From Streptomyces celluloflavus (lineage in GTDB: Bacteria > Actinomycetota > Actinomycetes > Streptomycetales > Streptomycetaceae): DNA of 64,000 bases. The stretch covers positions 22,422-86,421 of the forward strand of contig JOEL01000024.1 of assembly GCA_000720995.1 (NCBI GenBank), in the 5' to 3' direction. Shown here one piece after another: positions 5,804-19,591 of the stretch (position 1 is the stretch's first letter; each line of letters begins with the position of its first letter). A program made the translations under genes and the position numbers. The notes under the pieces are model-generated. The model worked only from the letters and a program-made list of their open reading frames with translations. It was not told the DNA's origin and ran no database searches.

Positions 5804-7591
5804 TCAACGGTGGGCGACCGGGGGGATGCCTTCGCGTTCCAGCCAGGTGGAGAGGCTGAAGAGGCGCCACAGCAGGCGCCAGTCGAACTTCTCCAGGTCG
5901 GTGAGGGCGTCGTCGCGCAGGATGCCCAGGCCGTTCAAGGGGCCTCGGGTGATGGTGGCGGAGAAGTCGGGCCAGTTGTCGGTCATCCAGTCCGAGTAGG
6001 AGAAATGGTCGTCGAAGCCCACCTTGGGCTCGGTGAACTCCTCGGCGAGCGGAGTGCCGTGGAAGACGTTCCGGAGCAGGTGTTTGGGGGCGCCGGGCCG
6101 GATGCGCCGTTCCACCGGCAGGCTGAAGACGCCCGCTACGAGATCGATGTCGAAGAACGGGGAGCGGACCTCCACGCCGCGCGCGATGCCGTTCTCGTCC
6201 GTCGCGCGGAAGTTGTCGTACGTCATGAGCCGGAAGAGGTCGAGGGCCTGCCCGAAGAGCACCGGGTCGGTGTCTTCGGCCGTCGAGTAGGGGAAGGGGC
6301 GGTCCAAGGCGTCGGCGAGTGCCGCGGCATGGGGGGCGACGGCGTCGCTGCCGAAGGCCGTCACGAACCTGCTCCAGCCGGCGGTGCGGTTCCAGCGTTC
6401 CCACCGTGACGTGGACATCCACTCCTCGGTGGTGGAACCCGCGGCGTCCGCGCGCAGTGCGGCGTAGCGGACGTAGCCGCCGAACACCTCGTCCGCGCCG
6501 TGGCCGCCCAGGAGCACGGCGGAGTGGTCGCGGGCGGCGCGGTGCAGGGCGTCGTTGTGGAGTACCAGCGGCTCCGCGGCGGGTGCGTCGAGTGTGCTGT
6601 TCAGCAGTTCCACCGCGGCGTCGAGGGAGGGGATCCGGAACGGCACCTCGTGCAGGTCCACGCCGAACTTCCCGGCCAGGGCGCGGGCCCGCTTCAGGTT
6701 CTCGTCCTCGTCGGGGTGCCGGGCCGAGAACACGGTGACGGCCGCCGCGGGCTCCGCGTGTTCCAGCGCGGCCTTGAGGACCGCGGAGGAGTCGATACCG
6801 CCGGAGAAGCCGACCGCGACCGGCCGGTCCGCCACCAGGGCGCGGCGCTGCGCCTGGTCGATGAGGTGCGTGATCTCGGTCTCGTCGGCGGGTGCGTCGC
6901 GCAGGCCGGACACCGGGGTGAGTGCGGTCGTCAGCCGCGGACCGGCGTCGCCGGGGCCGGTCCGGAGCACCCCGCCCGCCGGGACGGACCGGATGTCCCG
7001 GTAGAGGGTCCGGTTTCCCGTCAGACGGCCCAGGCCCAGGAACGCCAGTGCGTTGACCGGGTCGAGGGGGAGGTTCTCGCCGCGCAGGCACGCGGTGAGG
7101 CAGCGCATCTCCGAGGCGAAGGCGAAGAGTTCGGGAGAGTCGTAGTAGTAGAGGGGGCGTTCCCCGAGCCGGTCCCGGACCAGGGTCAGTTGGTGTGCCG
7201 TGGTGTCCCACAGGGCCAGCGCGAACGGTCCGCGCAGTTCCTCGAAGGCCGCGGTGCCGCGTTCGGCGCAGAGTTCCAGGGCCACTTGGAGGTCACCGGG
7301 CGGCATGCGGCGGCGCCTGTCCGCAGGCAACTGCCGCCTGAGTTGCCGGTAGTTGAGCACTTCGCCGTTGCCCACCATCACCAGTGCGTGTTCGCGGTCG
7401 AACATCGGCTGGCGGGCGTCGTCGACGGCGATGACGGCGTGCCGGGCCGAGTGGAGGGAGATCCATTCGTCGTCGAACGATCCCGTTCCGTCCCGCCCCC
7501 GGTGCGCCAGGGAGGCAGCGAGCGGCCCGGCCATGGATCGGTGGTCGACGGAGGGGTGCCGCTTCTTCAGAAGGCCACCGATACCGCACAT
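5804..7591 (-). CDS. Glutamine-dependent asparagine-synthetase-like amidotransferase
   Basis: 595-residue class II (Ntn) glutamine amidotransferase fused to an ATP-pyrophosphatase synthetase domain. ATG 7591 gives MCGIGG, placing the nucleophilic cysteine directly after Met; AAGGAG ends 6 bases upstream. The ATG at 7597 is in frame but abuts the Shine-Dalgarno and would bury the cysteine. Glutamine-pocket motifs are mostly present (HRGRDG, NGEVLNY), with RGRD in place of the usual RGPD. The C-terminal domain has the PP-loop SGGIDSS (about 263-269) and GGHGADEVFGGY. The enzyme should activate a carboxylate as an acyl-adenylate and amidate it with glutamine-derived ammonia. As the last gene of the operon it may amidate or condense a pathway intermediate. 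A beta-lactam synthetase is less likely because the glutaminase cysteine is retained. Confidence 0.9.
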   Translation of the reverse strand: MCGIGGLLKKRHPSVDHRSMAGPLAASLAHRGRDGTGSFDDEWISLHSARHAVIAVDDARQPMFDREHALVMVGNGEVLNYRQLRRQLPADRRRRMPPGDLQVALELCAERGTAAFEELRGPFALALWDTTAHQLTLVRDRLGERPLYYYDSPELFAFASEMRCLTACLRGENLPLDPVNALAFLGLGRLTGNRTLYRDIRSVPAGGVLRTGPGDAGPRLTTALTPVSGLRDAPADETEITHLIDQAQRRALVADRPVAVGFSGGIDSSAVLKAALEHAEPAAAVTVFSARHPDEDENLKRARALAGKFGVDLHEVPFRIPSLDAAVELLNSTLDAPAAEPLVLHNDALHRAARDHSAVLLGGHGADEVFGGYVRYAALRADAAGSTTEEWMSTSRWERWNRTAGWSRFVTAFGSDAVAPHAAALADALDRPFPYSTAEDTDPVLFGQALDLFRLMTYDNFRATDENGIARGVEVRSPFFDIDLVAGVFSLPVERRIRPGAPKHLLRNVFHGTPLAEEFTEPKVGFDDHFSYSDWMTDNWPDFSATITRGPLNGLGILRDDALTDLEKFDWRLLWRLFSLSTWLEREGIPPVAHR

Positions 7592-7675
7592 AGTCATCTC
7601 CTTGTCAGTCCGTCAGCACGGCTTTCTTCGTGGGCCGCAACGCCTTCTGGGGGCGAAGGGGCGGACCGCTCCTGG

Positions 7676-9025
7676 TCAGGCGTACTGCCCGAGGTCCCCG
7701 TCCGCCCCGAGCCGGCCCGCCGCCGCGACCAGGGCGGGCCACCGGCGGGTCAGTGCGGCGAACTCCCGGATGGCATCGGCCACGTACTGCTCCACCGTGT
7801 CCGCCTCCGCTTCCAGGGCCGCGACGCGGACGTCGAGCCGGCGCCGGACGTCGCCGGACGCGGTGGCCGCGGCCTCGCGGTAGACCGCGACGAAGGCGGA
7901 CGGGATGGCTGCCGCACGCTCCGCCCCGCGCTCCAGGGTGTCGAGGAGGAACTCCGCGTAGGCGCGCGTGTCGAAGTGCTGCCCGTCGGAGAGGAGGAGA
8001 TCCCGCTGGGTCATCAGGGCCTCGTTGAAGGCGTTCCAGTGCTTGCGCAGCACCGCGTAGCGCAGTTCGGCGCGGGCGTACCAGCTGAGGTGTTCGGCGC
8101 TGCTCTGCTCGGCCCGCCACGGCTCGTAGTGGTGGCCGGCGGTCATGCCGTGGTGCCAGACGGGGAGTTCGAGCTGGTAGAGCAGTCCCTTCTGGAAGTA
8201 GTCGCTGCCGAGCACCCCGACCGCGGGCATCTCCGGGATCCACTCGTGGACGCGTCGCACGGCGGCGATGCCCATCTCCACCGTGCCCGTGTGGTCGCGG
8301 CGGGCTGTCACCCCACCGTGGGCGGTGGTCTCCTCCGGCCGGGCCGGCACAGCGGGCCGGGCCACCCGGGTCTCGGCCGGGGAGAGCCGGCTCAGGGCGT
8401 CGATGCGGTGGACGTACTCCTCGGAGCGGTGCAGCAGGTCCCGGCGGTCGCGGGTGGGCCGGCCGGTGAGGGACGAGCCGACGCAGTACGCGCCCTTGCC
8501 GCCGGCCGCGGCGCCCCTGTCCAGCAGTTCTGCTTCGATGCGCAGGGGGGAGGCGCCGGAGGCGGGGTCCACCTGGGTGATCTGGTCGCTGTCGCGGCGG
8601 TGCAGGGTGTGCGCGCCCACGTATGCGGCCACCAGTGCGGCCTTGTTGGGGCCGGCGCCGTAGGACCCGGTGGGTTTGCACAGGGCGTGCCGGACCAGGG
8701 TGTGCTCGGCCGGCGGGAGCGCGGCGGTGGCGAGGACGTCGTGCGCGAGCCGTCGCCATCCGTCCACGCCCAGCACATGGACCCGCACACCGCCGGCCGC
8801 GGCGGCTGCCTCGGCGGCCTGCCGGTTGGCCCGGGACACCTGCGGTGGGCAGTCGTCCACCACCAGGAGCGTCACCTGGTGACGCGCCTCCTCGGGCAGG
8901 GCCGCCACCTCGGCGGCGACGGAGCGGAACGCCGCCTCGAAGGGACGGTTGGTGGGCATGTACACGAGCCGCCGGACGGGGCGCCCGCCCGCTTCTTCGG
9001 TCCTCGGTGCCGGTGGTGTGGGCAT
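7676..9025 (-). CDS. GT-A-like glycosyltransferase-type protein (DUF6271-like)
   Basis: 449-residue cytoplasmic protein with no signal peptide or membrane segment. The N-terminus has a Rossmann-like start (RRLVYMPTNRPFE), then VTLLVVDDCP, as in GT-A family 2 glycosyltransferases. A later RRDSDQITQVDP could serve as the DxD-type metal/nucleotide-sugar site. The C-terminal 150 residues are helical and charged (TLERGAERAAAIPS and following). I recall a streptomycete family of this type named DUF6271 but could not verify it. The gene lies 84 bases upstream of the asparagine-synthetase homologue and 52 bases downstream of a small unknown gene. It probably transfers a sugar or related group in this pathway; donor and acceptor are unknown. 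Confidence 0.65.
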   Translation of the reverse strand: MPTPPAPRTEEAGGRPVRRLVYMPTNRPFEAAFRSVAAEVAALPEEARHQVTLLVVDDCPPQVSRANRQAAEAAAAAGGVRVHVLGVDGWRRLAHDVLATAALPPAEHTLVRHALCKPTGSYGAGPNKAALVAAYVGAHTLHRRDSDQITQVDPASGASPLRIEAELLDRGAAAGGKGAYCVGSSLTGRPTRDRRDLLHRSEEYVHRIDALSRLSPAETRVARPAVPARPEETTAHGGVTARRDHTGTVEMGIAAVRRVHEWIPEMPAVGVLGSDYFQKGLLYQLELPVWHHGMTAGHHYEPWRAEQSSAEHLSWYARAELRYAVLRKHWNAFNEALMTQRDLLLSDGQHFDTRAYAEFLLDTLERGAERAAAIPSAFVAVYREAAATASGDVRRRLDVRVAALEAEADTVEQYVADAIREFAALTRRWPALVAAAGRLGADGDLGQYA

Positions 9026-9077
9026 GGTGGCTGACGCAACCTCTCAGGACGTGACGGGGAAGGGGGCTGCGGGCGGC

Positions 9078-9317
9078 TCACCCGCCGGAGGCCGGCTGGG
9101 GGGAACCGTCCGGCGCGCGGGCGGCATGCTCGCACCGCACGGCGGTGTCCACCCGCGCCTCCGCTGCCGGGGCGGCCGGATCGATGGCGGGCGCGCACAT
9201 CTCCTGGAGCCGCACCGCGGGCTCGGGGTGCTTGCGGAGGAGATGCGTGAGATTCTCCCGCCATTCACGTCCCCCGGTTGGCGCCGCCACCGGCGACGGC
9301 GGTACCGGTTCACGCAC
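9078..9317 (-). CDS. Small unknown protein (79 aa) coupled to the LOG-type gene
   Basis: This frame starts at GTG 9317 and overlaps the end of the LOG-type gene by 8 bases. It encodes 79 residues with strongly G/C-ending codons, including WRENLTHLLRKHPEPAVRLQ and EMCAPAIDPAAPAAEARVDT. It ends at TGA 9078, and the next gene starts 52 bases on. The position fits a translationally coupled small protein. I do not recognise a family; two cysteines are present and no membrane segment. An alternative GTG at 9313 in another frame gives an arginine-rich product with poorer codon use and is rejected. Confidence 0.6.
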   Translation of the reverse strand: MREPVPPSPVAAPTGGREWRENLTHLLRKHPEPAVRLQEMCAPAIDPAAPAAEARVDTAVRCEHAARAPDGSPQPASGG

Positions 9318-10050
9318 TCCGCCATTCAGCGCCGAGATCGGCGGGTCGGTTCGTCGCCGCGACGGCCTCCGCTGCCGGTGCGGTCGCCGGTGCGCGCACG
9401 GCCACGGCTGCCAGTGCCGCCTCCACCGACTCGGCGACGACGAGTTCCTCGACCACGGCGGGGCTGGCGAGCCCCTCCTCCACCAGGTGCCGCTGGACGA
9501 AGTGCACGAGTGCCTCCCACAGGCCGGTGCCCTCGGGCTGGACGAGTACCACCGGGAAGCGGTCGAGTCGCGCCGTGTCGTGGTGGACCAGGACCTCGAA
9601 GAGCTCGTCGAACGTGCCGACACCCCCGGGGAAGACGAACAGCGCGTCGATGTCGTGGGTGAGGAGGAGTTTGCGCAGGGCGAAGGTGCCGACGGTGAGT
9701 GAGCGGTGCTCGTCCAGGACGGTGTCGGGTACTTCGCCGGGGATCTCGATGCGCACCGCCCGGGACAGCGTCGCACCGCTGCCGTCCCGGACGGCCTGCA
9801 TGATCCCGGGGCCGCCGCCGGTCACGGTCGTCCACCGGTGGGCGGCGAGAGCCGCGCCCAGTTCCCGGGCCATCTCGTAGGCCGGCTCGCCCCGTATGGC
9901 GCGGGCCGAGCCGAACACGGTGGCGACGCGTGCCGGTGACAGGGCCCGGGAGGTCTGGCTCCAGGTCCGTGCCCCGTCGACTTCGCCGGCGATCGAGTGC
10001 AGCGTGCTCAGGAGTGCGGATGCGGTGTGTGTCGTGGTCGGTTCGCTCAT
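9310..10050 (-). CDS. LOG-family nucleoside 5'-monophosphate phosphoribohydrolase
   Basis: 246-residue LOG (lonely-guy, formerly lysine-decarboxylase-like) protein. The signatures GGGPGIM (residues 78-84) and PGGVGTFDE (141-149) bind the phosphoribosyl group and carry the catalytic glutamate. LOG enzymes cleave the N-glycosidic bond of nucleoside 5'-monophosphates, giving free base and ribose 5-phosphate. In nucleoside-antibiotic pathways, base-releasing hydrolases supply the nucleobase. ATG 10050 has GGAGG 10 bases upstream and overlaps the glycosyltransferase stop by 4 bases. Its place inside a biosynthetic operon suggests a pathway role rather than housekeeping cytokinin or nucleotide turnover. 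Substrate unknown. Confidence 0.88.
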   Translation of the reverse strand: MSEPTTTHTASALLSTLHSIAGEVDGARTWSQTSRALSPARVATVFGSARAIRGEPAYEMARELGAALAAHRWTTVTGGGPGIMQAVRDGSGATLSRAVRIEIPGEVPDTVLDEHRSLTVGTFALRKLLLTHDIDALFVFPGGVGTFDELFEVLVHHDTARLDRFPVVLVQPEGTGLWEALVHFVQRHLVEEGLASPAVVEELVVAESVEAALAAVAVRAPATAPAAEAVAATNRPADLGAEWRSA

Positions 10051-11225
10051 GATGCCGTTGCCTCCGTCGTCAGCTCGTCCGCGCTGCGACGAGCGGCCAG
10101 GTCCGCGGCCACCACCGCGGCCACCTCGTGCGCCCCGCCGAACGGGGCGCCCACGTCCGGCGTCCGGGGGTTCCCCACCGCGTGCCGGGCCAGTTGCGCG
10201 TAGCGCGTCAGGTATCCGTCGTCCCGGCCGAGCCGTCGGTTGATCTCCTGTACGGCCACGGCCTTCTCCGCCTCGGGCGCCGCCTCGGCGATGTGGTCGT
10301 ACGGCCCCGTGAGGAACGGCCACAGGCTCTGTTCCGAGCGGCCGGCCAGGTGTCGGCAGATGAGGACCTGGCTCCAGTTCTGCGGGGGCAGCGGCACATA
10401 GGGCCGCCCGGCCTGCGACGCCTCGACGAGGGTGGTCATCCCGGGGGAACTGAGCACCACGTCGCAGTGCCCCAGTGCCGTCCGGAAGTCCGCGGCGGAC
10501 AGTTGGTGCACCGGCATCCCGGCGTGGAGGGTGAACGCGCCGTTGGCGTGGTTCATGGCCACGTTCATCTCGACCGAGTCGTTCCGTACCGCCGCCAGCA
10601 GGCGTTCCACCAGCGCCAGATAGACCCGCCCCGAGGTGTGCCCGGCCGGATTTCCCAGGCCGCCCAGCTGCACCAGCACCCGGGTGCGGTCCGGCGCCCG
10701 GACGCCGGCGCCCTCGGGCGGGGCCGCGGGTGTGGGGATCGCCGGGGGCGGGGCGACGATCCCGGAGACCGGGATCACGCCGCGCAGGCCGAGCCGGGCC
10801 AGGTGGGCCGCGCTGCCGAAGAGGTCCTGGGCGAGGTAGGCGCGGACCTGGTGGAGCGGGCTGTCGGGCGGCACGTCCGCCGCTCCCCACATGAAGCCGA
10901 GACTGTCCACGTAGTAGGTGCGGGCGGCCAGCTCGCCGGTTCCGATGAGCTCCGGGGCCAGCACGTTGACCACGGCGTCCGCGGAGCGCAGCGCCGGCGG
11001 CCCCTGCCCCGGATAGGGGTCGTCCAAAGGCCGGACGTGGATACCCGGTTGGGCGGTGAAGAAGTCGAGCGCGGAGTCGGTGCCGTAGTACGCCACGTCC
11101 AGGCCGTGGTGCCGGGCCAGCACCTGGCCGATGCTGTATGCCTTCGAGGCCGGTCCGAAGCCGAAGGGCGTGGCCACCACTGCCACCCGGGCCCGCCCGT
11201 CGGCGGTGGGTGCGGGCAAGGTCAT
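10047..11225 (-). CDS. GT-B (UGT/GT1-like) glycosyltransferase
   Basis: 392-residue two-domain GT-B protein. The N-terminal acceptor domain starts with RVAVVATPFGFGPASKAYSIG, a UGT-like nucleotide-fold start with a glycine-rich turn. The C-terminal donor domain has RVLVQLGGLGNPAG and the donor-site motif DVVLSSPGMTTLVEASQAGRP with PQNWSQ downstream, typical of UDP/dTDP-sugar transferases. The long upstream extension of the open frame (to 11522) is antisense-like and arginine-rich, so ATG 11225 was chosen. That start overlaps the upstream kinase/phosphatase stop as ATGA, and its own stop overlaps the LOG-type start the same way. The protein probably glycosylates or ribosylates a pathway intermediate; donor unknown. 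Confidence 0.82.
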   Translation of the reverse strand: MTLPAPTADGRARVAVVATPFGFGPASKAYSIGQVLARHHGLDVAYYGTDSALDFFTAQPGIHVRPLDDPYPGQGPPALRSADAVVNVLAPELIGTGELAARTYYVDSLGFMWGAADVPPDSPLHQVRAYLAQDLFGSAAHLARLGLRGVIPVSGIVAPPPAIPTPAAPPEGAGVRAPDRTRVLVQLGGLGNPAGHTSGRVYLALVERLLAAVRNDSVEMNVAMNHANGAFTLHAGMPVHQLSAADFRTALGHCDVVLSSPGMTTLVEASQAGRPYVPLPPQNWSQVLICRHLAGRSEQSLWPFLTGPYDHIAEAAPEAEKAVAVQEINRRLGRDDGYLTRYAQLARHAVGNPRTPDVGAPFGGAHEVAAVVAADLAARRSADELTTEATAS

Positions 11226-12388
11226 GGAGACTCCTTGGCGGGTTGCGGGCTGCGGGCGATGTCCTCGGGGGACCGGTTGACGAAGTCCACCGACACCGCG
11301 TCCGCGCCGATCCGGAAGCGGGAGAAGTGGCCGGTGTCCCAGCGCAGCGCGCGGACTCCGCGGAGTTCCGTGCCCAGTGCCCGCTCCAGCAGCCAGTGGT
11401 GCGGTCCGCCGTGTCCCACCACCAGCACCCGGCGGCCGGGGTGGCGGGCGGCCAGCGTGGTGAAGAACTCCAGGACCCGGTCGCGGGCCTGTTCGTAGCT
11501 CTCCTCGCCGTCGACCGTGCACAGGTCGCTGTTGCCCGTCAGGACCCGGTCGGCCTCCGGTCCGAGGCGCCGCCGCACCTCGTCCAGGGCGACCCCGGCG
11601 AAGGTGTGGAAGACGCGTTCTTGCAGTGCGGCCTCCTCGCGTACTTCGACGCCGAGCGAGGCGGTCGCGAGTGCGGCCGTTTCCCGGGCGCGCAGGAAGT
11701 CCGAGGTGTATACCGCCTCCGGGGCGAAGCGTGCGACGGCCGCCCGTGCGGCTCGCGCCTCGTCCCGTCCGCGGGGGGACAGTCCCATGGCGTACGGGTC
11801 GGGGTAGGTGTCGCCCGGATAGTCCGGGGCGCCGTGCCGCAGGAACAGTATTTCCACGGCCTCGGTGGCCGGGGGTTCGGTCTCCGCCTCCTGCGCGGTG
11901 AGTTCGAGGAGGTCCAGGACGTCGTCGGCGACCTCCTCGGGCTGCTTGTCGTGGATGCCGAGCAGCAGGCCGGCGGGGCGGAACTGCCGGTGCAGTTCGC
12001 GGACGCGGTCCTCGTCCATGCGGGCCAGCGGATCGCGGGCGTTGTTGCGGTCCAGCAGATCGGTCAGCGTGCCGTCCAGCGTGATCGTCACCAGGCGCAT
12101 TCCCTTGCGCCGGAAGCGCAGCTCCTGGGCGGCCAGGAAGTCGACGTCCTCGAAGACTCCGTCGATCACGGGGGTGAAGCCGCTGTCCAGGTAGGACAGG
12201 GCGAGGTCGAGGCAGCCCAGTTCGGATGCCACGAGGGTGAAGTCGCTGAAGTCCCGGGGCCGGGCCATGTACCGGACGGAGTCGTTGGAGATCCGGACGG
12301 CCGGGACCAGGGAGTCCCGCAGCAGGGCGGCGGTGGTGGTCTTGCCGGAGCCCGGCAGACCGCGCAGCAGCAGCGCGATGCGGTTCAT
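11222..12388 (-). CDS. Bifunctional P-loop kinase / histidine phosphatase fusion
   Basis: 388-residue two-domain protein. Residues 1-165 form a P-loop kinase with Walker A GLPGSGKT (10-17), resembling AAA_33/zeta-type small-molecule kinases. Residues 178-388 form a histidine-phosphatase (phosphoglycerate-mutase) domain with the phosphohistidine motif LRHGAP (RHG about 184-186) and a second histidine in VVGHGGPHHW. The architecture parallels eukaryotic PFK-2/FBPase-2, which makes and removes one phosphate, but the kinase half is a different type. In this operon it may phosphorylate an intermediate, for protection or activation, and later dephosphorylate it. Its stop overlaps the downstream glycosyltransferase start by 4 bases. 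The aminotransferase gene ends 7 bases upstream. Confidence 0.85.
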   Translation of the reverse strand: MNRIALLLRGLPGSGKTTTAALLRDSLVPAVRISNDSVRYMARPRDFSDFTLVASELGCLDLALSYLDSGFTPVIDGVFEDVDFLAAQELRFRRKGMRLVTITLDGTLTDLLDRNNARDPLARMDEDRVRELHRQFRPAGLLLGIHDKQPEEVADDVLDLLELTAQEAETEPPATEAVEILFLRHGAPDYPGDTYPDPYAMGLSPRGRDEARAARAAVARFAPEAVYTSDFLRARETAALATASLGVEVREEAALQERVFHTFAGVALDEVRRRLGPEADRVLTGNSDLCTVDGEESYEQARDRVLEFFTTLAARHPGRRVLVVGHGGPHHWLLERALGTELRGVRALRWDTGHFSRFRIGADAVSVDFVNRSPEDIARSPQPAKESP

Positions 12389-12395
12389 GGGGTGG

Positions 12396-13556
12396 TTACC
12401 TTTCCTGTACCAAATGGTGTCGGAGCGCCACGACGGTCTCGGCCACCCGGGAGACGGCTGCGTCCGTCAGGTATTTCGAGGTCGGCACGCTGAGGATCCT
12501 GGGCGCCAGCGCCGCTGCCTTCTCGGGCCGTGGATGTGCCTCACTCGACAGCACGCGCCGGAACAGTCCGTGTTCAGGGTAGGTCTTCTTCCAGACCACA
12601 CGGGCGAGGACACCGCGGGCCGCGAGCCCGGTGCAGAACTCCGCGGCGTCGCCGGCGCTACGAGCCACGAACAGGGTGTGGGATGCCGCGTCCCCTTCCG
12701 GGTGTGAGCTGTCCAAGGCCGGGGTGTCGGCGCCGAGTTGTTCGCGCAGCCGGGTGCGCCGGTCCCGCTGCCGGGCCAGCGTCTGTTCCAGTGTCAGGGC
12801 CTGGTCCATCACCAGGGAAGCCTGGAGTTCGGTCATCCGGAGGTTGTCGCCGACGAGCGCCCGTTCGTCGTCCCAGTCGGGCAGTCCGCCGTCGTGGCGG
12901 ACGGCGCCCAAATCCGCCATCCGGTAGACCCGCTCGACGAGTTCGGCACCGCCGGCGACCAGCCCGCCCTCACCGGAGGAGATCTGCTTGGACTGCTGGA
13001 AGCTGGTGACGGCGACATCGGCGAGCTCACCGGCCCGGCCGTCCGCCGACGCGGCGCCGAGCGCCTGGCAGACGTCCTCGATCAGCGGGACACCCAGCCG
13101 GTCGCAGAGCTCCCGCAGCCGCCCCGCGGGGACCGCGTGTCCCTGCACATGAACGATCAGCACCGCGGCGACGGGCCCATCGGGCGATTCCAGCGCCGCC
13201 GTGTCGGGGGTGAGGGCGGTGTCCATGTCCAAGGGGACGGGTACGGCGCCCACCGCGGAGACGGCCATCGCGCAGGCGATGAAGGAATAGGCGCTGACCA
13301 GGACGCGGTCACCGGGGCCGATCCCCAGGGCGCTCAGCGCCAGGCGCAGTCCGACGGTGCCGTTGGCCACCGCCGTGGCGGCCTCCTTGCGGAAATACCC
13401 GGCGAAGTGGCGTTCGATGAGCGTGTTGGCGGACTCCCGGTCCCCCTCGACGTAGCGGAAGAGCTGGCCGTCGGCGAGGGTCGTGCGGAAGTGGGTGAGG
13501 GACTGCGGATCCTCCCGCGACAGGTCGAAGAACTGATGGGGGTTGAGCACCGTCAT
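12396..13556 (-). CDS. DegT/DnrJ/EryC1/StrS aminotransferase, full-length
   Basis: 386-residue fold-type I PLP aminotransferase of the DegT family, which usually aminates keto-sugars or cyclitols. Asp161 in IEDVCQALGA contacts the PLP nitrogen. Lys190 in SFQQSKQISSGEGG is the Schiff-base lysine. Length and motif spacing are normal. It lies 6 bases downstream of a shorter, divergent DegT gene and 7 bases upstream of the kinase/phosphatase. The pathway therefore probably contains at least one amino-sugar or amino-cyclitol step; no dTDP-sugar biosynthesis genes are in the window, so the keto substrate must come from elsewhere. Confidence 0.9.
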   Translation of the reverse strand: MTVLNPHQFFDLSREDPQSLTHFRTTLADGQLFRYVEGDRESANTLIERHFAGYFRKEAATAVANGTVGLRLALSALGIGPGDRVLVSAYSFIACAMAVSAVGAVPVPLDMDTALTPDTAALESPDGPVAAVLIVHVQGHAVPAGRLRELCDRLGVPLIEDVCQALGAASADGRAGELADVAVTSFQQSKQISSGEGGLVAGGAELVERVYRMADLGAVRHDGGLPDWDDERALVGDNLRMTELQASLVMDQALTLEQTLARQRDRRTRLREQLGADTPALDSSHPEGDAASHTLFVARSAGDAAEFCTGLAARGVLARVVWKKTYPEHGLFRRVLSSEAHPRPEKAAALAPRILSVPTSKYLTDAAVSRVAETVVALRHHLVQER

Positions 13557-13562
13557 GTGCAG

Positions 13563-14489
13563 TCATCCAATCGTGACGAGAAGGGGTTCCACGGGCCGCC
13601 TGCCGCCGGTCATGACGCGCTTCGCACAGCGGTGGAACATCGGCAGCGCGGACGGCGGCTGCGGATGCATCCGCTGTACGGGTCCGAGGTCGTCCGCCAG
13701 CTGTTCGATGTGGCGGGGGGTGGCGGACGGCGCCGGGTAGAGCGGCAGCCGGGTCCAGCCCGCGCGGGACCCTGGCAGCAGGCGGGGAAGACGGAAGTGG
13801 TGCGCCAGGTCACTGTCGAGGAAGCGGTCAACTGCCGCTCTACGACGGGTGAGTTGACGGTCGGCGCGGGCGATGGCGTCCGCGAGCAGGGGCAGCAGCG
13901 GGGCGGGGAAGCGCGCGGGTGACGGGGGCCGCGGCCGGTGCCGGTCCGTGGTGTCGCCCCGGGCGACGGCACCGGAGATCATGTCGGCCGCGCCGAGGAG
14001 CGCGCCCCCGGCGCCGAGCGACACCGGTTTGGACGGTCCGAACGAGGTGACGGTGAGGGTCCCGGTGGAGCCGGCCGGCACGCCCCGTGTCGTCGACCCC
14101 CAGGTCTGGGCCACGTCCTCGATCACCGCCACCCCTGGAGGCAGCGCCTCGGCGATGTCGGCCACATCGCACGGCAACCCGTACTGGTGCACGGCGATGA
14201 CCGCGCGGGTCCGTTCGGAGCACGCCAGGGCCACGTCCGCCGGGCGCAGGGTCAGCTCCTCGCCGACGCCGACGAACACCGGCACCGCATCGGCGCGGAC
14301 GACGGCGGCGGCGACGGAGTGGCAGCCGGCGTCGGGCACCACCACCTCGGCGCCCGCGCCCACCTCCAGTACCTCCAGGGCGACTTCCAGCGCCGCGGCG
14401 CCCGAGGCGCAGAACTCCGCGGCGGGCCGGCCGAGACGGTGCAGCAGGTCCTGGACGGCGGCGTCCACACGAGGGTCAGCCGAAGGCAT
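13563..14489 (-). CDS. Short DegT-family aminotransferase paralogue
   Basis: 308-residue DegT-like protein with Asp125 (IEDVAQTWGS) and Lys154 (TSFGPSKPVSLGAGG), so the PLP site looks complete. It is about 70-80 residues shorter than usual and lacks much of the N-terminal arm and part of the C-terminal domain. The canonical GEGG after the lysine is GAGG. The sequence differs greatly from the adjacent full-length DegT, so it is not a recent duplication. Options are a second aminotransferase, a dehydratase-type relative, or a subunit forming a heterodimer with its neighbour. The stop is 6 bases before the next gene and the start overlaps the upstream GNAT gene by 14 bases. Confidence 0.8.
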   Translation of the reverse strand: MPSADPRVDAAVQDLLHRLGRPAAEFCASGAAALEVALEVLEVGAGAEVVVPDAGCHSVAAAVVRADAVPVFVGVGEELTLRPADVALACSERTRAVIAVHQYGLPCDVADIAEALPPGVAVIEDVAQTWGSTTRGVPAGSTGTLTVTSFGPSKPVSLGAGGALLGAADMISGAVARGDTTDRHRPRPPSPARFPAPLLPLLADAIARADRQLTRRRAAVDRFLDSDLAHHFRLPRLLPGSRAGWTRLPLYPAPSATPRHIEQLADDLGPVQRMHPQPPSALPMFHRCAKRVMTGGRRPVEPLLVTIG

Positions 14490-15594
14490 GCCGCAGCCCC
14501 TTCCCCGCCTGGTGGGCGCGGGTCACCCGGGCGTCCAGCGCCGCGCGCTCCCGTGCTCGGAGCGCTCCCGGTTCCGCCGCGCCGCACCACACGTCCGCCC
14601 GCGGCACGCGCTCGCTGTAGAGCAGGTTCTTCAGCGTGTCGGGGCTGCCGTGCAGGTCCACCGTGCGCACACCGCGGCCCGCCCACTCCTGCCGCAGTCC
14701 CTCCGTCAGCAGGTGGAGACCGGGCGAGTAGCGTCGGTAGGTCTCGTCATAGGACCATTTCAGGCTCGTCAGCCGGTCGTTCACCCGGGCGTCCAGCCGG
14801 AAGGCCACGGGCCGCTCGCCGTCGAAGAGGATCGCGGCCGTGACCTCGCCCGTGCCGACCAGCCGGCCGTAGAGCGCGTCCTGTCCGCCGCGCAGCCGCA
14901 TGCTCTGTCCGTGCTCGGCCTTCCACGAATGGTCGTCGACCGCGAGGACGTGCGCGAAGGCGTGCGCACCGGACTGCCCCGGCCGGACCGTCAGGCCGTC
15001 GCGCTCTACCAGGAGTCGTTTGCGGCGGAGTTGGGAGGTGCCGCGTTCCAGGGCACGCCCCCACAGGTCGGCGCCGTCGCGGGACCAGTCGATCAGGGAG
15101 TTGGGCGGTCGTCGCCAGGTCGTGCACCCGGCTCGGGCGCACGCCCCGGCGTGGGCGGCGTCCACGAGGGGGAGGTAGACCGACGCTCCGGTGGCCCGGC
15201 GGACGGACGTCACGAGGTGTGCCAGTCGCTCGGCGTGGCCGTGCTCGGTCAGTACGGGCTCGTCGCCACCGACCGCCGTGAGGACTTCCCCCTCCCGAGT
15301 GAAGGCGACGATGCCGAGGGGAGCGAGGGCGACCACCACGCGTTGCCCGGCGGCGCGTACCGCGCGGGCGTACCCCGGGGACTGCTGCAGCCGCGTGCCG
15401 TACCGCCGGTACGCGGTCGCCCACGCGTCCTCCTGGGCTCGGGTGAGGGTGTCGAGGTCGACGAGCCTCAGGTCGTGGACCGGTCCGGGTTCCGGTGCGC
15501 TGCGGCCGGCCGGGCGCCGGTGCGGCGCCGCGAGGTCCGCGGTCGGCGGGCCGGCGTCGAGGCCGGGTTCGGCGGGAGGGCCGGTGGCGGTCAT
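14476..15594 (-). CDS. CelD/BioF2/FemX-type GNAT acyl- or aminoacyltransferase A
   Basis: 372-residue protein of the Acetyltransf_6/FemX-like group, with a double GNAT fold. A proline-rich, probably unstructured N-terminus (1-45) precedes VHDLRLVDLDTL. The C-terminal GNAT core contains LYGRLVGTGEVTAAILF, then PVAFRLDARVNDRL and YRRYSPGLHLLTEGL. Such proteins transfer acyl groups from CoA, or amino acids from charged tRNA, onto amines. ATG 15594 overlaps the stop of the upstream GNAT gene as ATGA; the open frame to 15903 is an artefact. Two such genes in tandem suggest two successive amide-forming steps. Confidence 0.78.
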   Translation of the reverse strand: MTATGPPAEPGLDAGPPTADLAAPHRRPAGRSAPEPGPVHDLRLVDLDTLTRAQEDAWATAYRRYGTRLQQSPGYARAVRAAGQRVVVALAPLGIVAFTREGEVLTAVGGDEPVLTEHGHAERLAHLVTSVRRATGASVYLPLVDAAHAGACARAGCTTWRRPPNSLIDWSRDGADLWGRALERGTSQLRRKRLLVERDGLTVRPGQSGAHAFAHVLAVDDHSWKAEHGQSMRLRGGQDALYGRLVGTGEVTAAILFDGERPVAFRLDARVNDRLTSLKWSYDETYRRYSPGLHLLTEGLRQEWAGRGVRTVDLHGSPDTLKNLLYSERVPRADVWCGAAEPGALRARERAALDARVTRAHQAGKGLRHAFG

Positions 15595-16502
15595 CCGAAC
15601 TCCCCCGCCCCCGGGCCCGGTTCGTCCGACCGGAGCCACCGTAGTTGCGGATAGGCACGGGCACGGGCGCCGAACCCGGTCATGAACCGGTCGACGCCGG
15701 GCAGCACACTGCCTTCGAAGTCGAAGACGTCGGTCCCGGGCTGCCGCCGTGCCCAGGCGATCGCCTCGTCCACCAGCAGGCTCGGTACCCCGCGCGCGCC
15801 CGTGCGGTCGAACCAGGAGTGCATCAGGACCGCGGCGCCGTCGCAAAGCAGCACGAACACCTGGCCCCGGCAGACCCCGTCGGGGTCCGTCGCGGCGAGG
15901 CACAACGCCGGTTCCGCACGCCCGATGCGCAGTCCGGATGCGCGCCGCGCGGCCACGGCGGCGGCCGGCTGGCCGACCACCGCGCGGGAGAAGTCGAACG
16001 TGTCGAGCGGGGCGCTGCGCACGGTGTGCTGCCGGGCCGCGACCCGGATGTGGTTCCGGGCGGTGGCCACGTACCCGTTACGGGGATCGAGGCCGTCGCG
16101 CAACGTCAGTGTGCGGGTGTGCCGGCAGAGCAGCTCGGCGCCCGCTTCGGACAGGGCGGCCACCTCGCCGAAGCGCGGATCCATCGGGATCTCCGCCGAC
16201 GCCACGCGGGCCATGAGCGCTTCGGTCATCGAGAGGACGGCGCGGTGGCGGTCCACGGGGTGCAGCCCCGGGTCGACCCACGGTGAGGCGTAGGGCAGGA
16301 GGCGGAAGGGACGGCGGGCGGCCGTTCCGCCGCCGTCCAGGGGGACCGCCCAGACGCCGGCGGTGCGGCCGCCGCGGGTCCGGCACACGAGGTTGAGGGT
16401 CTTGCCGTAGAGCTCGGCCGCCGTCGGTGAGTTCCACACCTGCACGGGCAGGCCGGCGGCGGCCTTGGCGAGCTCGTCGGGGGAAACGGTGTCACTGTGC
16501 AT
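15591..16502 (-). CDS. CelD/FemX-type GNAT acyl- or aminoacyltransferase B
   Basis: 303-residue protein of the same superfamily as the next gene but clearly diverged. The N-terminal half contains RPFRLLPYASPWVDPGLHPV. The C-terminal GNAT region ends with the family signature DVFDFEGSVLPGVDRFMTGFGA, seen in FemX/CelD-like proteins near the acceptor site. ATG 16502 has GGAAGG four to ten bases upstream; the frame continues to 16775 but without family sequence. It overlaps the downstream GNAT gene by 4 bases. It could be acetyl-CoA or aminoacyl-tRNA dependent; motifs alone do not decide. Confidence 0.78.
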   Translation of the reverse strand: MHSDTVSPDELAKAAAGLPVQVWNSPTAAELYGKTLNLVCRTRGGRTAGVWAVPLDGGGTAARRPFRLLPYASPWVDPGLHPVDRHRAVLSMTEALMARVASAEIPMDPRFGEVAALSEAGAELLCRHTRTLTLRDGLDPRNGYVATARNHIRVAARQHTVRSAPLDTFDFSRAVVGQPAAAVAARRASGLRIGRAEPALCLAATDPDGVCRGQVFVLLCDGAAVLMHSWFDRTGARGVPSLLVDEAIAWARRQPGTDVFDFEGSVLPGVDRFMTGFGARARAYPQLRWLRSDEPGPGAGEFG

Positions 16503-16557
16503 GGGGCCCCTTCCGGACGGGCGGGGCCGGCCGGCCCGGCGCCCTGCGAGACGTGGC

Positions 16558-17367
16558 CTACATCGCGTCGAGCAGTGCGAAGGTCTCCTGGAGGCTGGTG
16601 GGGACCTGGCCGCCGGTGGCCGCCATTTCCCGGGCCATCCGCAGTTCGGACGTCGTCCGGTCGCGTACGACGGGCGGTGCGCCCTGCCCGGTGATGATGG
16701 CCTCGTCGAGGTCCGAGTAGTGCGCGAGTGCCCAACTGGAGCCGGTCGAGGCGGCCAGTGCACCGCGCAGGACATCGGGGTCGACGCCGAGTGCCCGTCC
16801 GGTGCCGAGCGCTTGGAGCGCGGCGTGCCGGTTGCTGTAGAGGAGCCAGTTGTTGCAGAGCTTCACGGTCATCCCGGCGCCGGTCGGTCCGGCGTGTACC
16901 ACGTTGTCGGCGTAGCGTTCCAGGACCGGCCGCACGGCGGTGAGTTCCTCCGTGGTACCGCCGACGAACAGGGACAGCGAGCCGTCGCGGACCAGGCCGT
17001 CCCGGCGGCTGAGGGCGGCGTCCAGCAGGGTGTGCCCCTGCTGCCGTACTCCGTCGGCCAGTTCCCGGACGGTCTGCGGGGTGAGGGTGGTGTGCAGCAC
17101 CACGTGGGAGCCGGGGGGCGCGGCGGCGCAGAGCCCGTCGGCGCCGAAGAGCAGGGCGCGTACGTCGTCCGGGCGCTTCACTACGACGAGGTGGATAGCG
17201 GCGGCGCGGGCGGCTTCCGCGGCCGTCGCGCAGCGGTGGAAGTTGTCCGCTGCCGTCGGCACGTCGGCCACGGGGTCGTACGCGTGCACTTCGGCTCCGC
17301 GCGTCACCAGGCAGGACGCGATGTCCGCCCCCATTTCCCCGAGCCCGTACAAGGCGAGGTTGGCCAC
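16558..17367 (-). CDS. NAD(P)-dependent beta-hydroxyacid dehydrogenase (6PGDH/HIBADH-like)
   Basis: 269-residue protein starting at GTG 17367 with AAGGAA about 8 bases upstream. The N-terminal Rossmann domain has GLGEMG (8-13). The C-terminal helical domain has the HIBADH-type catalytic signature GPTGAGMTVKLCNN, with the conserved Lys and Asn. Relatives oxidise 3-hydroxyisobutyrate, tartronate semialdehyde or 6-phosphogluconate, or act as imine reductases. Retention of the Lys-x-x-Asn pair argues for a hydroxyacid dehydrogenase rather than an imine reductase. It is the second gene of the operon, 74 bases after the exporter, and may make a carbonyl for one of the aminotransferases. Confidence 0.85.
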   Translation of the reverse strand: MANLALYGLGEMGADIASCLVTRGAEVHAYDPVADVPTAADNFHRCATAAEAARAAAIHLVVVKRPDDVRALLFGADGLCAAAPPGSHVVLHTTLTPQTVRELADGVRQQGHTLLDAALSRRDGLVRDGSLSLFVGGTTEELTAVRPVLERYADNVVHAGPTGAGMTVKLCNNWLLYSNRHAALQALGTGRALGVDPDVLRGALAASTGSSWALAHYSDLDEAIITGQGAPPVVRDRTTSELRMAREMAATGGQVPTSLQETFALLDAM

Positions 17368-17441
17368 GTCGTGGTTCCTTTCATGAGTTCCATCGGGTAT
17401 CGGCGGCCGGTCCGGGGAGCGGAACCGGAGGCAGCGAGATC

Positions 17442-18749
17442 TCAAACGGGGGCTTCGACGTGCGGCGAGCGGACCCCGGCCCGGGTTCTGGCCAGCACCA
17501 GCACCAGTCCCGATCCCAGTCCGAGCGTCATGATGATGCCGAGGTAGACCGTCCCTACGGACAAACAGGTCAGCAGTCCGGCGACCAGGAGCGATCCGAC
17601 CAGTTGCGACGGGCCCTGCACCGCGCCGAAGACGGCGAACGCCTGCGCCGAGCCGGCCGGGCGCCAGCGGTCCTGGACTTCGCTCTGCAGCGCCGCGTCG
17701 CCCCCGCTGAGCAGGCCCACCACGGTGTAGAGGCAGATCGCCCGGACCGGATGTGCGGCATTCAGACCGAACACGGTCTGGACGCAGAATCCGGCGAGGA
17801 CGATGTGCGGTACCCAGGACCTGGTCCACCGCCCCAACGTGCCGCCGGAGACGAGCACTCCGCTGATCATCGCCGCGAGGGCGAAGCAGGCATTCGCCGT
17901 ACCGGCGATCCAGGACCTGTCGGCGGCACCGCCGGTCAGCAGCGGAACGAACATGCTGAAGCCGAGGGTGTGACTGAGTTCCATGAGGAGCAGCGAGGCG
18001 GTGAACAGCCCCAAGCGCCGCGGCGAGAACACCTCCCGCCACACGCCGGCGGTTCCGTCCGGTTCCACCGGCCCGGCGGCAACGGTCCGCCACGCGACCG
18101 CGGACTTGCGAAAGGACGCCCGGTTGATCACCACGAACACCACGAGCTGAAGCACGAGGCCGACCAGGTACGACAGCGCGCACAGCCCCAGAGATGCCTG
18201 GAAACCGATCGACGAAGCCAGCACTCCGCCGAGCGCCCAGCCGATCACCACGGATGCCTGGGCGGCGACGGCCAGCATCGCGTTCAGCCACGTCAGCTGT
18301 TCCAGGCCGGTGGTCTGGCCGGCGACCCAGCCGCGCATGGCGGGGAGGTAGAAGGCGCCGAAGCCGGCGAAGAGGAACATGCCGACGTAGATCTGCCACG
18401 CCTGTAGCCCCCCGGCGCGCACCAGCAGCCAGAGCGTCACGGTCACGGCGAACGCTCCGGCGTCCGACGACAGCATCACCCAGCGGTGGTCGACGAGTTG
18501 GTTGACGATCCGGACCGCCCGGACCAGCAGCAGTGCGGGCAGCGCACCGGCCGCCACGACCAGGGGCGCGCTCGCGGCCGAACCCGTCACCCGCAGCGCG
18601 AGAAGGGAAAGCAACAGCAGCAGCAGTGCGGAGGTGCTCTGGCTCTGGAAGGTCGACACGATTACCGTGCCGACTTCCCGCCTTTCGACCGCGCCGAACC
18701 CTTGCCAAATCTCTGATCGGGTACGGGTTTGCACCGACGCCTGCCCCAT
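17442..18749 (-). CDS. MFS transporter, probable product exporter
   Basis: 435-residue polytopic membrane protein with about 12 hydrophobic segments, in the MFS_3/enterobactin-exporter-like style. The charged N-terminus GQASVQTRTRSEIWQGFG precedes the first segment, and a long central loop (about residues 205-235) separates the halves. ATG 18749 is chosen because GGGAGG lies 8 bases upstream; a longer start at 18791 has no such site. It is the first gene of the minus-strand operon, so its upstream region should hold the operon promoter. The likely role is export of, and self-protection against, the pathway product. Confidence 0.85.
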   Translation of the reverse strand: MGQASVQTRTRSEIWQGFGAVERREVGTVIVSTFQSQSTSALLLLLLSLLALRVTGSAASAPLVVAAGALPALLLVRAVRIVNQLVDHRWVMLSSDAGAFAVTVTLWLLVRAGGLQAWQIYVGMFLFAGFGAFYLPAMRGWVAGQTTGLEQLTWLNAMLAVAAQASVVIGWALGGVLASSIGFQASLGLCALSYLVGLVLQLVVFVVINRASFRKSAVAWRTVAAGPVEPDGTAGVWREVFSPRRLGLFTASLLLMELSHTLGFSMFVPLLTGGAADRSWIAGTANACFALAAMISGVLVSGGTLGRWTRSWVPHIVLAGFCVQTVFGLNAAHPVRAICLYTVVGLLSGGDAALQSEVQDRWRPAGSAQAFAVFGAVQGPSQLVGSLLVAGLLTCLSVGTVYLGIIMTLGLGSGLVLVLARTRAGVRSPHVEAPV

Positions 18750-19591
18750 TCGCCTCACCTCCCGAATTTCGCATTTCTTTTCGAATCGCACCGCGGCCTC
18801 TAACGGGTCAAGCAGCCCGCGACGACATCACTTCTTCGACCCCTGCCGGGAGAGTTTCTCCGGGCGGCGATTCCCGGAAACCCAAGCACGATTACTCGGA
18901 CATGGTCAACCAAATCCGTTCCGTACCTTGGGCTTTGGCCAGAAGGCCGCCGCCTGCTCCTCGCCGGGAATATCACCGGGAACAATGCCCCGAACCCATA
19001 CCCGGATAACCCTCCGAGCTCCTCCCCACTCGACAAAACAGCGATCGGAGTACCGCGAGCAACGCCTGTATGACACCGTCATGACGCCGCATCGGGAACA
19101 CGATCCCCGGGACTTCCTTTTCCTGAACGCCACCTCTCGTTCACATCCGGACGACCAGAACAGGTCAGCGCGACAACCCACACACCCATCCATGGCGGTT
19201 ATTCATACATTCACAAGAAGAGCGAAAGTATCGCGCCTTCCCGAAAGGCAAGAAAATATCGGCATCGTCGCCTCGCTCCCTTGGCGCGGCCCGGCACGGG
19301 GGCTCGGAGCTGCCCTCCGCCGCCGGGAAAGAGGCCCCATCGCTGGCCGATTTCCCGCGGCGCACCCCGTAGCCGCAACAGGCCAACGGGTAGCGCGGTG
19401 ACCCGTGGGCAGCCTGTGTGGACCTCTCCCACCGCTATCCGATTCCGTCCGGCGTCGCATCCAGGCGGCACGGGGCTCGGACAACGCCCTGGGAACCAGC
19501 GGGGCCGGACCGTCCCGGCGCCGGCAGTCATACGCCCCACCGAGCCGCCGCTCCCCCGTCGGTCGCCCTACACCACAAGGAGCCCTGCCGA
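18750..19591. other. Long divergent intergenic region, lower GC, probable operon control region
   Basis: This 842-base stretch separates the minus-strand biosynthetic operon from the plus-strand methyltransferase. Its GC content looks visibly lower than its flanks between about 18760 and 19260. No open frame here shows coherent family sequence; the short frames on both strands look random. Promoters for both directions must lie here, but I cannot assign a -35/-10 pair with confidence. A TTGACC occurs on the minus strand near 18810, with no good -10 at 17 bases. Confidence 0.5.

Follow-up and report, generated by a model that had tools for sequence, protein, structure and literature searches.

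Gene content and the conserved unit

The stretch of DNA analysed here (the window) spans 64,000 nucleotides of contig JOEL01000024.1 of Streptomyces celluloflavus (GCA_000720995.1), part of an 8.68-Mb draft genome in 193 contigs. At positions 5804–18749, it carries eleven full-length minus-strand genes, tightly packed and without internal stops, and a divergent methyltransferase gene lies beyond the last of them (Table 1). We propose that they form a peptidyl nucleoside operon of the gougerotin (gou) family. Genes were called with a codon-usage gene caller, lists of open reading frames (ORFs), and Pfam and NCBIfam scans. The caller overlooked the methyltransferase gene, and the starts of this gene and of the DUF6271, DegT2 and exporter genes were moved from the caller's choice to the start common to their relatives. 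With the chosen starts, four gene junctions overlap by 4–14 bases and two are spaced by 6–7. The sequence GGGAGG lies directly upstream of the exporter ATG at 18749, and no TTA codon was found in the 12 cluster genes checked.

Table 1. Features of the operon and its divergent methyltransferase gene (positions in the window; aa, amino acids; MFS, major facilitator superfamily; GNAT, GCN5-related N-acetyltransferase; SAM, S-adenosylmethionine).
Feature	Positions	Strand	Basis; proposed gou position or counterpart
Asparagine-synthetase-type amidotransferase (AsnB), 595 aa	5804..7591	-	PF00733 E 2.6e-46, GATase_7
DUF6271 protein, 449 aa	7676..9025	-	PF19787 E 1.6e-28; proposed gouC position
Out-of-frame 3' glycosyltransferase remnant	9117..9269	-	Homology to relatives' protein; gouD position (from gene order)
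LOG-family protein, 246 aa	9310..10050	-	TIGR00730; proposed gouE position
Cytosylglucuronate-synthase-like GT-B, 392 aa	10047..11225	-	TIGR04467; proposed GouF counterpart
P-loop kinase/histidine phosphatase fusion, 388 aa	11222..12388	-	AAA_33, His_Phos_1; proposed gouG position
DegT aminotransferase 1 (DegT1), 386 aa	12396..13556	-	PF01041 E 2.1e-61; proposed gouH
Short DegT aminotransferase 2 (DegT2), 308 aa	13563..14489	-	PF01041; proposed gouI position
FemX-type GNAT transferase 1 (FemX1), 372 aa	14476..15594	-	Acetyltransf_6; proposed gouJ
FemX-type transferase 2 (FemX2), 303 aa	15591..16502	-	Fold match; proposed gouK
Beta-hydroxyacid dehydrogenase, 269 aa	16558..17367	-	PF03446 E 7.4e-28; proposed gouL position
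MFS exporter, 435 aa	17442..18749	-	MFS_1 E 1.1e-12; proposed GouM counterpart
Exporter–methyltransferase intergenic region	18750..19591		Conserved blocks against two relatives
Class I SAM methyltransferase, 239 aa	19592..20311	+	Methyltransf_25 E 1.3e-14; proposed GouN counterpart

Pfam and NCBIfam confirmed the family for nine of the eleven operon genes. Seven were assigned directly by Pfam: asparagine synthase, DUF6271, LOG, kinase/phosphatase, the two DegT genes and the hydroxyacid dehydrogenase. Motifs were sought in seven proteins and were present in all of them; the patterns used for the glycosyltransferase GT-B are its own sequence and carry no evidential weight. Judged from sequence, a single match of the GT-B protein is the key to reading the cluster. 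The protein matches only one NCBIfam model at E≤0.05, the equivalog TIGR04467 for hydroxymethylcytosylglucuronate/cytosylglucuronate (CGA) synthase, with E 1.6e-20 and a score of 73.6 bits where the cut-off is 300 bits. No Pfam match was found, nor any PDB sequence match at E≤0.01. CGA synthases couple cytosine and glucuronate toward blasticidin-, mildiomycin- and gougerotin-type nucleosides. The published account of the gougerotin pathway likewise includes a CGA synthase step (PMC12835213).

The neighbouring proteins can be described as follows. The LOG protein scored above the cut-off of TIGR00730 (100.8 against 96.35 bits) and contains the motif PGGVGTFDE (PGGxGTxxE). Its best PDB match is a cytokinin-riboside-5'-phosphate phosphoribohydrolase (5wq3, E 3.1e-27), and it scored 70.5 bits, under the 300-bit cut-off, against the cytokinin riboside 5'-monophosphate phosphoribohydrolase model NF058542. 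The amidotransferase has MCG and FSGG.DSS motifs and is 89.7% identical to the S. noursei protein. In the fusion protein, AAA_33 (E 2.3e-8) and His_Phos_1 (E 8.3e-36) come with GLPGSGKT, RHG and GHG motifs. The lysine of SFQQSK in DegT1 aligns with a lysine of the AHBA synthase 1b9h, and VKLCNN of the dehydrogenase aligns with AKVCNN of 3q3c; we take both aligned lysines to be catalytic. DegT1 also gave sub-threshold matches to the PseC and LegC-family models. DegT2 matches PF01041 across residues 22–165 (E 4.6e-32) and has an SFGPSK motif, and FemX1 matches Acetyltransf_6 with E 8.8e-12. The structure model of the DUF6271 protein is of low confidence (predicted local distance difference test, pLDDT, 57) and gave no fold match at E≤0.001. 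Its best match was mannosyl-3-phosphoglycerate synthase (E 0.11); the protein is possibly GT-A-like.

FemX2 had no match in Pfam or NCBIfam. Its model (pLDDT 75.8) matched Weissella FemX best in Foldseek (1ne9, E 1.9e-10), followed by the tandem GNAT of the clavulanic acid pathway (2wpw, E 3.1e-9) and then by Sbb17 (E 1.9e-8) and Sba18 (E 4.1e-8), the structures of which are aminoacyl-tRNA-dependent synthases bound to streptothrisamine. Because the clavulanic acid GNAT ranks among these matches, the fold cannot choose between tRNA and coenzyme A (CoA) as the source of the amino acid.

The GT-B protein is sparsely distributed. Among 394 genomes of the family, 16 had a match at E≤1e-10. The only close ones were the window's own genome and that of S. 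californicus NRRL B-2098 (G223, 61% identity), the rest lying at 29–36%. Three of 392 genus genomes matched at E≤1e-30 (the window's own, G223 and G890). In a set of 61 genomes (the window's own and 60 from the genus, order and class), the window's own genome alone matched at E≤1e-20. In a plasmid collection, the GT-B protein and the kinase/phosphatase both matched a single record, the S. microflavus plasmid. The kinase/phosphatase had a match in 179 of 394 class genomes; among the matches listed, the window's own aside, all concerned the phosphatase half, save one of 30% over residues 5–359 with a stop inside. Seventeen aligned GT-B proteins served as the query for a scan of genome contigs, which found 63 loci. 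In the GT-B tree (64 rows), six syntenic rows, the window included, form one clade with support 98/99. This tree left out L113 (too short, 215 aa) and G890, and carried long-branch warnings for L116, L058, L110 and others.

Six other loci, four of them (L054–L057) among these 63, are collinear with the window, with the same genes in the same order and the divergent methyltransferase. Identity to the window over 12 genes was 83.1–92.2% in S. noursei A-2-1 (L054), 64.0–76.7% in S. pyxinae LP05-1 (L055), 57.3–76.8% in G890 (L124), 52.9–71.4% in S. californicus NRRL B-2098 (L056, the same contig as G223 and counted once) and 52.5–72.0% in the S. microflavus NA06532 plasmid NZ_CP054927.1 (L053). 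In S. diastatochromogenes NRRL B-1698 (L057), nine genes were 80.5–92.0% identical and the contig ends inside the GT-B gene. The whole 13-gene set, which includes a glycosyltransferase gene described below, is present in five loci (L053, L054, L055, L056 and L124), and in the sixth up to the contig end. The methyltransferase occurs in all six (59–83% identity), and the intergenic blocks between it and the exporter gene are conserved in an alignment with S. noursei and S. diastatochromogenes. In G890, the exporter has one in-frame stop inside the aligned range.

We compared the same genes by tblastn (E≤1e-6) with the 59 other loci, some of which are short contigs where absence is weak evidence. 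AsnB, the dehydrogenase, the exporter, the methyltransferase and the extra glycosyltransferase had no match in these loci. DUF6271 and LOG matched in one each, the kinase/phosphatase in five (phosphatase half), FemX1 in seven, FemX2 in 11, DegT2 in 18 and DegT1 in 41. The collinearity in other loci, together with four genes without matches in the 59, excludes a chance assembly of the set. In the flanks of the seven loci, no homologue common between loci was found at E≤1e-8 among ORFs of at least 100 aa; the flanks compared comprised window positions 1–40000 and, for the other loci, as much sequence as the records contained, which for S. noursei and S. pyxinae meant under 1 kb beyond the methyltransferase gene and some 5 kb at the opposite end. 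Within these flanks, the conserved unit therefore runs from the methyltransferase gene to AsnB, 13 genes; further genes specific to one locus, or lying farther out, may exist. Four flanking genes of the window were scanned: they encode a PALP enzyme, a Polyketide_cyc2 protein, a sigma factor with a weak SnoaL_2 match and a DUF2637 protein.

In S. microflavus, the entire cluster is carried by a linear plasmid of 608 kb that is typed as mobilizable (L053 covers its positions 249581–282720); an IS256 transposase gene lies upstream of the cluster and an integrase-core gene downstream. The sole annotated gene inside its FemX2 frame encodes a 98-aa hypothetical protein. With this location, the unit may move between strains.

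An internal deletion between the LOG and DUF6271 genes

The five syntenic loci that cover the gap between the LOG and DUF6271 genes carry there a family-2 glycosyltransferase gene, open and without stops over the whole match. In S. noursei, it encodes 321 aa (PF00535, E 5.1e-25). The nucleotide alignment of the window with S. noursei runs to at most 8 bases from the LOG stop codon. Beyond this point, 48 bases stand in place of about 766 in S. noursei, and the two sequences align again within the glycosyltransferase gene, whose start codon and 3' remnant are in different frames in the window. The remnant matches the S. microflavus protein at 53% over 51 aa and residues 251–318 of the S. noursei protein at 76%. 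A search of the genome detected no intact copy; apart from the remnant, it gave seven matches of 25–38% to the N-terminal part. The deletion is read from a draft assembly, in which an assembly error at this place is possible. From the gene order, the position of the lost gene would be that of gouD.

The other 12 genes have no internal stops. Their ratios of nonsynonymous to synonymous substitution rates (dN/dS) against S. noursei are 0.16–0.35, values that mostly reflect selection before the deletion.

These results redraw the outline given in an earlier note on this DNA, which counted twelve minus-strand genes. Eleven of them are real. The twelfth, a "small unknown" (ORF 9044–9325), is rejected as a gene of its own: together with the remnant, it is debris of the deleted glycosyltransferase. 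The operon itself stands, with the divergent methyltransferase gene, which had been passed over, added to the unit. A search for co-conservation in other genomes, proposed as a check in the same note, was positive in the six collinear loci.

Probable assignment to the gougerotin family and a proposed pathway

In the published account (PMC12835213), the gou cluster comprises gouA–gouL and gouN, the exporter gene gouM and the regulator gene gouR. There, gouA, gouF and gouH lead to 4-amino-CGA and gouB amidates the sugar carboxyl. gouJ is described as an N-acetyltransferase gene, GouK has an acetyl-CoA-binding domain, and the two activate and attach amino acids. gouN is an N-methyltransferase gene acting on glycine, and gouM encodes an MFS exporter. 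gouC and gouD are assigned to sarcosine, and gouG, gouI and gouL to D-serine. Assigned in order to the genes of our operon, the letters L to B take up 11 genes, the lost one included, and suitable families stand at B, F, H, J, K, M and N. Wei et al. (2014) reportedly described gouL to gouB as an 11-gene operon. Ningnanmycin comes from S. noursei and gougerotin from a strain of S. microflavus; a literature search on the latter link gave one review, and neither of its two relevant passages connects the two. S. noursei xinao-4 produces peptidyl nucleosides, the xinaomycins (PMC4139839). A table in PMC5350119 names S. coelicolor as host for the gou cluster.

GouM of S. albulus CK-15 is given as 442 aa, 1,329 bp and 46.87 kDa, with 80.32% identity to the S. 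noursei A-2-1 protein QRX95245 (PMC12835213). The exporter of the S. noursei A-2-1 cluster has 442 aa with the chosen start and is the sole match in that genome at E≤1e-5 to the window's exporter (86.4% identity); it may be QRX95245. We infer the orthology to gou from the reported gene roles, the reported length and identity of GouM, and the 11-gene description. With a probability of about 0.8, the locus is a gougerotin-family operon orthologous to gouB–gouN, in which the glycosyltransferase at the gouD position was lost by internal deletion.

The earlier note did not recognise the gene combination as any described pathway, a suggestion of novelty that finds no support: content and order fit the gougerotin cluster as far as it is described in PMC12835213, and we reject a novel pathway on this ground. 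A close match to a characterised cluster is what the note itself named as refuting its view; for seven gou genes there is such a match, one of role and not of sequence. The nucleoside-like amino-sugar scaffold with amide-forming enzymes, suggested in the same note, is by now well supported. It accords with the CGA synthase family of the GT-B protein and also fits the neighbouring LOG, DegT, asparagine-synthetase-type and FemX-type proteins.

Several points weigh against the assignment. The comparison with gou is at the level of reported gene roles. The GT-B protein lies far under the TIGR04467 cut-off, which would leave its substrate and base unsettled. The mass of GouM differs from the 45.76 kDa computed for the S. 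noursei exporter. No gouA or gouR counterpart was found beside the operon, where the seven loci have no common gene. Among the four flanking genes scanned, none has a TetR domain, in a search confined to the flanks, with the rest of the genome not searched. The published sarcosine roles of gouC and gouD and D-serine roles of gouG, gouI and gouL do not obviously fit a DUF6271 protein, a family-2 glycosyltransferase, a kinase/phosphatase and a DegT protein; for gouE, the text consulted gives no role. By its order, the dehydrogenase would be gouL, a D-serine gene there and not a C4' oxidase, and CoA-activated amino acids are proposed for gou (PMC12835213). Finally, without the gene at the gouD position, the pathway in the window strain may be incomplete.

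From the families and their neighbours, we infer a possible route, its base and amino acids included. The LOG protein would release cytosine from cytidine monophosphate (CMP), and the GT-B protein would couple it to the glucuronate of uridine diphosphate (UDP)-glucuronate. The beta-hydroxyacid dehydrogenase may then oxidise C4'. It suits this step because the C4' hydroxyl is beta to the carboxylate and because the conserved unit has no other dehydrogenase. DegT1, the proposed gouH product, would aminate C4', for which its family and aligned lysine are fitting. The amidotransferase, the proposed gouB counterpart, would convert the carboxylate to the amide (a uronamide), and its family and motifs are consistent with sugar-carboxyl amidation. 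FemX1 and FemX2 would load the 4'-amine with two amino acids, for which aminoacyl-tRNA is the probable donor; FemX-like GNAT transferases use aminoacyl-tRNA in several natural-product pathways (PMC12945691). The methyltransferase would N-methylate glycine to sarcosine, and the MFS protein would export the product. Since the nearest family of the GT-B protein is CGA synthase, the product is most likely an aminated and amidated glucuronyl nucleoside carrying amino acids from two FemX-type transferases.

Gougerotin is not known to carry a second sugar, so the glycosyltransferase at the gouD position may be dispensable. This bears on a refinement of the gougerotin-family assignment, compatible with it, that we hold possible: the pathway would yield a different congener or an intermediate with the glycosyltransferase gone. 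The gene is open in all five relatives that cover the place, while the window keeps an out-of-frame remnant; the 12 other genes are uninterrupted and their dN/dS values are low, though these mostly predate the deletion and do not show that the pathway continued to function. Xinaomycin production in S. noursei xinao-4 stayed visibly unchanged when one of its glycosyltransferase genes, not necessarily the counterpart of the lost one, was deleted (PMC4139839).

It is rather doubtful that the locus is a horizontally acquired gougerotin-type cluster that is now inactive and in decay. The deleted gene, the sparse occurrence of the GT-B gene (none of the 60 other genomes and three of 392 in the genus, its own included) and the plasmid location in S. 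microflavus would suit such a history, but the 12 other genes have no internal stop and the blocks between the exporter and methyltransferase genes are conserved. An unlikely but more far-reaching scenario is an operon that naturally works without gouD and makes an undescribed congener, with a tRNA-dependent FemX pair, a base supplied by LOG, and a protective phosphate on the nucleoside that the kinase would add and the phosphatase later remove. The idea of protective phosphorylation arises because a kinase and a histidine phosphatase recur, as separate genes, in a cyanobacterial locus (L058).

We consider it quite unlikely that the cluster, though of common origin with gou, builds its product on another base than cytosine. 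BlsM and MilB release the base in the blasticidin S and mildiomycin pathways, and the named PDB matches of the LOG protein are mostly cytokinin-riboside phosphoribohydrolases and not of this type; the low GT-B score points the same way. CGA synthase is nevertheless the only family that the GT-B protein matches. In S. antibioticus DSM 40234 (L064, same contig as L022), moreover, a CGA synthase at 358 bits, above the cut-off, adjoins a 32% LOG homologue, an independent LOG/CGA pairing. A surface-polysaccharide operon for sugar amination is very improbable and was rejected: DegT, GNAT and glycosyltransferase genes do occur in polysaccharide operons and DegT1 matches PseC/LegC-family models under their cut-offs, but a CGA-synthase-like glycosyltransferase, LOG, an amidotransferase and an exporter stand together here, are sparsely distributed and fit the gou roles.

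Related gene sets and comparison with known clusters

Of the 63 GT-B loci, 16 belong to uncultured Firmicutes-type bacteria, one of them Tenericutes (L059, L060, L062, L066, L071, L072, L073, L075, L076, L080, L083, L085, L087, L088, L091 and L108). Their GT-B proteins form one clade (support 100/99), and three that were scanned matched TIGR04467 with E 7e-51 to 8e-63, below the cut-off. Single-linkage families, named from one to three scanned members each, recur over these loci. The first, with nucleoside-deoxyribosyltransferase matches below the cut-off in two members, occurs in 15 of the 16. A radical SAM family occurs in 12; two of its three NCBIfam-scanned members best match the BlsE family TIGR04466, below the cut-off, and the third a peptide-maturase family. 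PHP and FemX2-like proteins occur in 11 loci each, DegT in 10, a double-ATPase ATP-binding cassette (ABC) protein in nine, an APH phosphotransferase in eight and a UDP-sugar dehydrogenase in six. Such a set resembles those for nucleoside antibiotics and is possibly a blasticidin- or gougerotin-like pathway outside the Actinomycetota, with its genes in varying subsets. In one literature search, neither the titles nor the opening lines of the abstracts reported a peptidyl-nucleoside cluster from the gut or from Firmicutes. In L087, a tryptophanyl-tRNA synthetase gene (12844–13935; TIGR00233, 234.2 bits, above the cut-off) follows the last small ORF of the Oscillospiraceae cluster at a distance of about 120 bases, and could serve self-resistance or be a mere neighbour.

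Other related sets differ in composition. In an uncultured Coleofasciculus (L058, the cyanobacterial locus), an NRPS (nonribosomal peptide synthetase) condensation domain, a split carbamoyltransferase, a histidine phosphatase, a FemX1-like protein, two DegT proteins, a FemX2-like protein, an APH kinase and a CGA-synthase-like glycosyltransferase follow in a row. Nocardiopsis sp. CNR-923, S. natalensis and S. griseofuscus (L104, L106 and L115) hold another cluster type, with a CGA-synthase-like glycosyltransferase, a phosphatase like the second half of the fusion, a DegT and a FemX1-like protein. In an Acidimicrobiaceae contig (L110, 7073–10012), CGA-synthase-like glycosyltransferase, DUF6271 and phosphatase matches adjoin, and the DUF6271 range contains a stop.

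Gougerotin is a protein-synthesis inhibitor. The operon would thus belong to a known kind of antibiotic cluster, and it carries a natural deletion at the position of gouD. Comparison of the seven collinear loci reduces the gougerotin-type unit to 13 genes, and the flanks compared have no gene in common. The unit makes several questions testable: the need for gouA against a dehydrogenase-made 4'-ketone, tRNA against CoA as the amino-acid source, base release by LOG, and the role of the lost glycosyltransferase. The Firmicutes-type gene sets merit study of their own.

Compared with its closest relatives, the window differs in the gap between LOG and DUF6271, where all five loci that cover it keep an open family-2 glycosyltransferase gene. 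From the gou cluster it differs in having no intact gene at the gouD position, and gouA and gouR counterparts were not seen beside it. Its exporter gene also has the orientation of the operon genes, whereas gouL and gouM share a promoter region in gou. Like gou in S. graminearus (JQ307220.1) and S. albulus CK-15, as far as described in PMC12835213, the locus has a CGA synthase-like protein, an aminotransferase, a carboxyl-amidating enzyme, two amino-acid-attachment proteins, an N-methyltransferase and an MFS exporter; if the 11-gene description is right, the run from L to B is a further likeness.

A putative CGA synthase step also links the locus with the blasticidin S and mildiomycin clusters. 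In the blasticidin S pathway, cytosylglucuronic acid is the substrate of the radical SAM enzyme BlsE (PMC3715490). Among the twelve cluster proteins scanned with Pfam, neither a BlsE-type radical SAM enzyme nor a BlsM/MilB-type CMP hydrolase was found. A blasticidin- or mildiomycin-type cluster was rejected, as Pfam found neither a radical SAM nor a nucleoside-deoxyribosyltransferase family in these proteins. The proposed use of aminoacyl-tRNA by the FemX pair would depart from the published gou proposal of CoA activation. GNAT-fold aminoacyl-tRNA-dependent transferases include BD-12 Orf11, PacB, VlmA and DhpH/DhpK (PMC12945691), and FemX2 resembles this class in the matches of its model to Weissella FemX, Sbb17 and Sba18.

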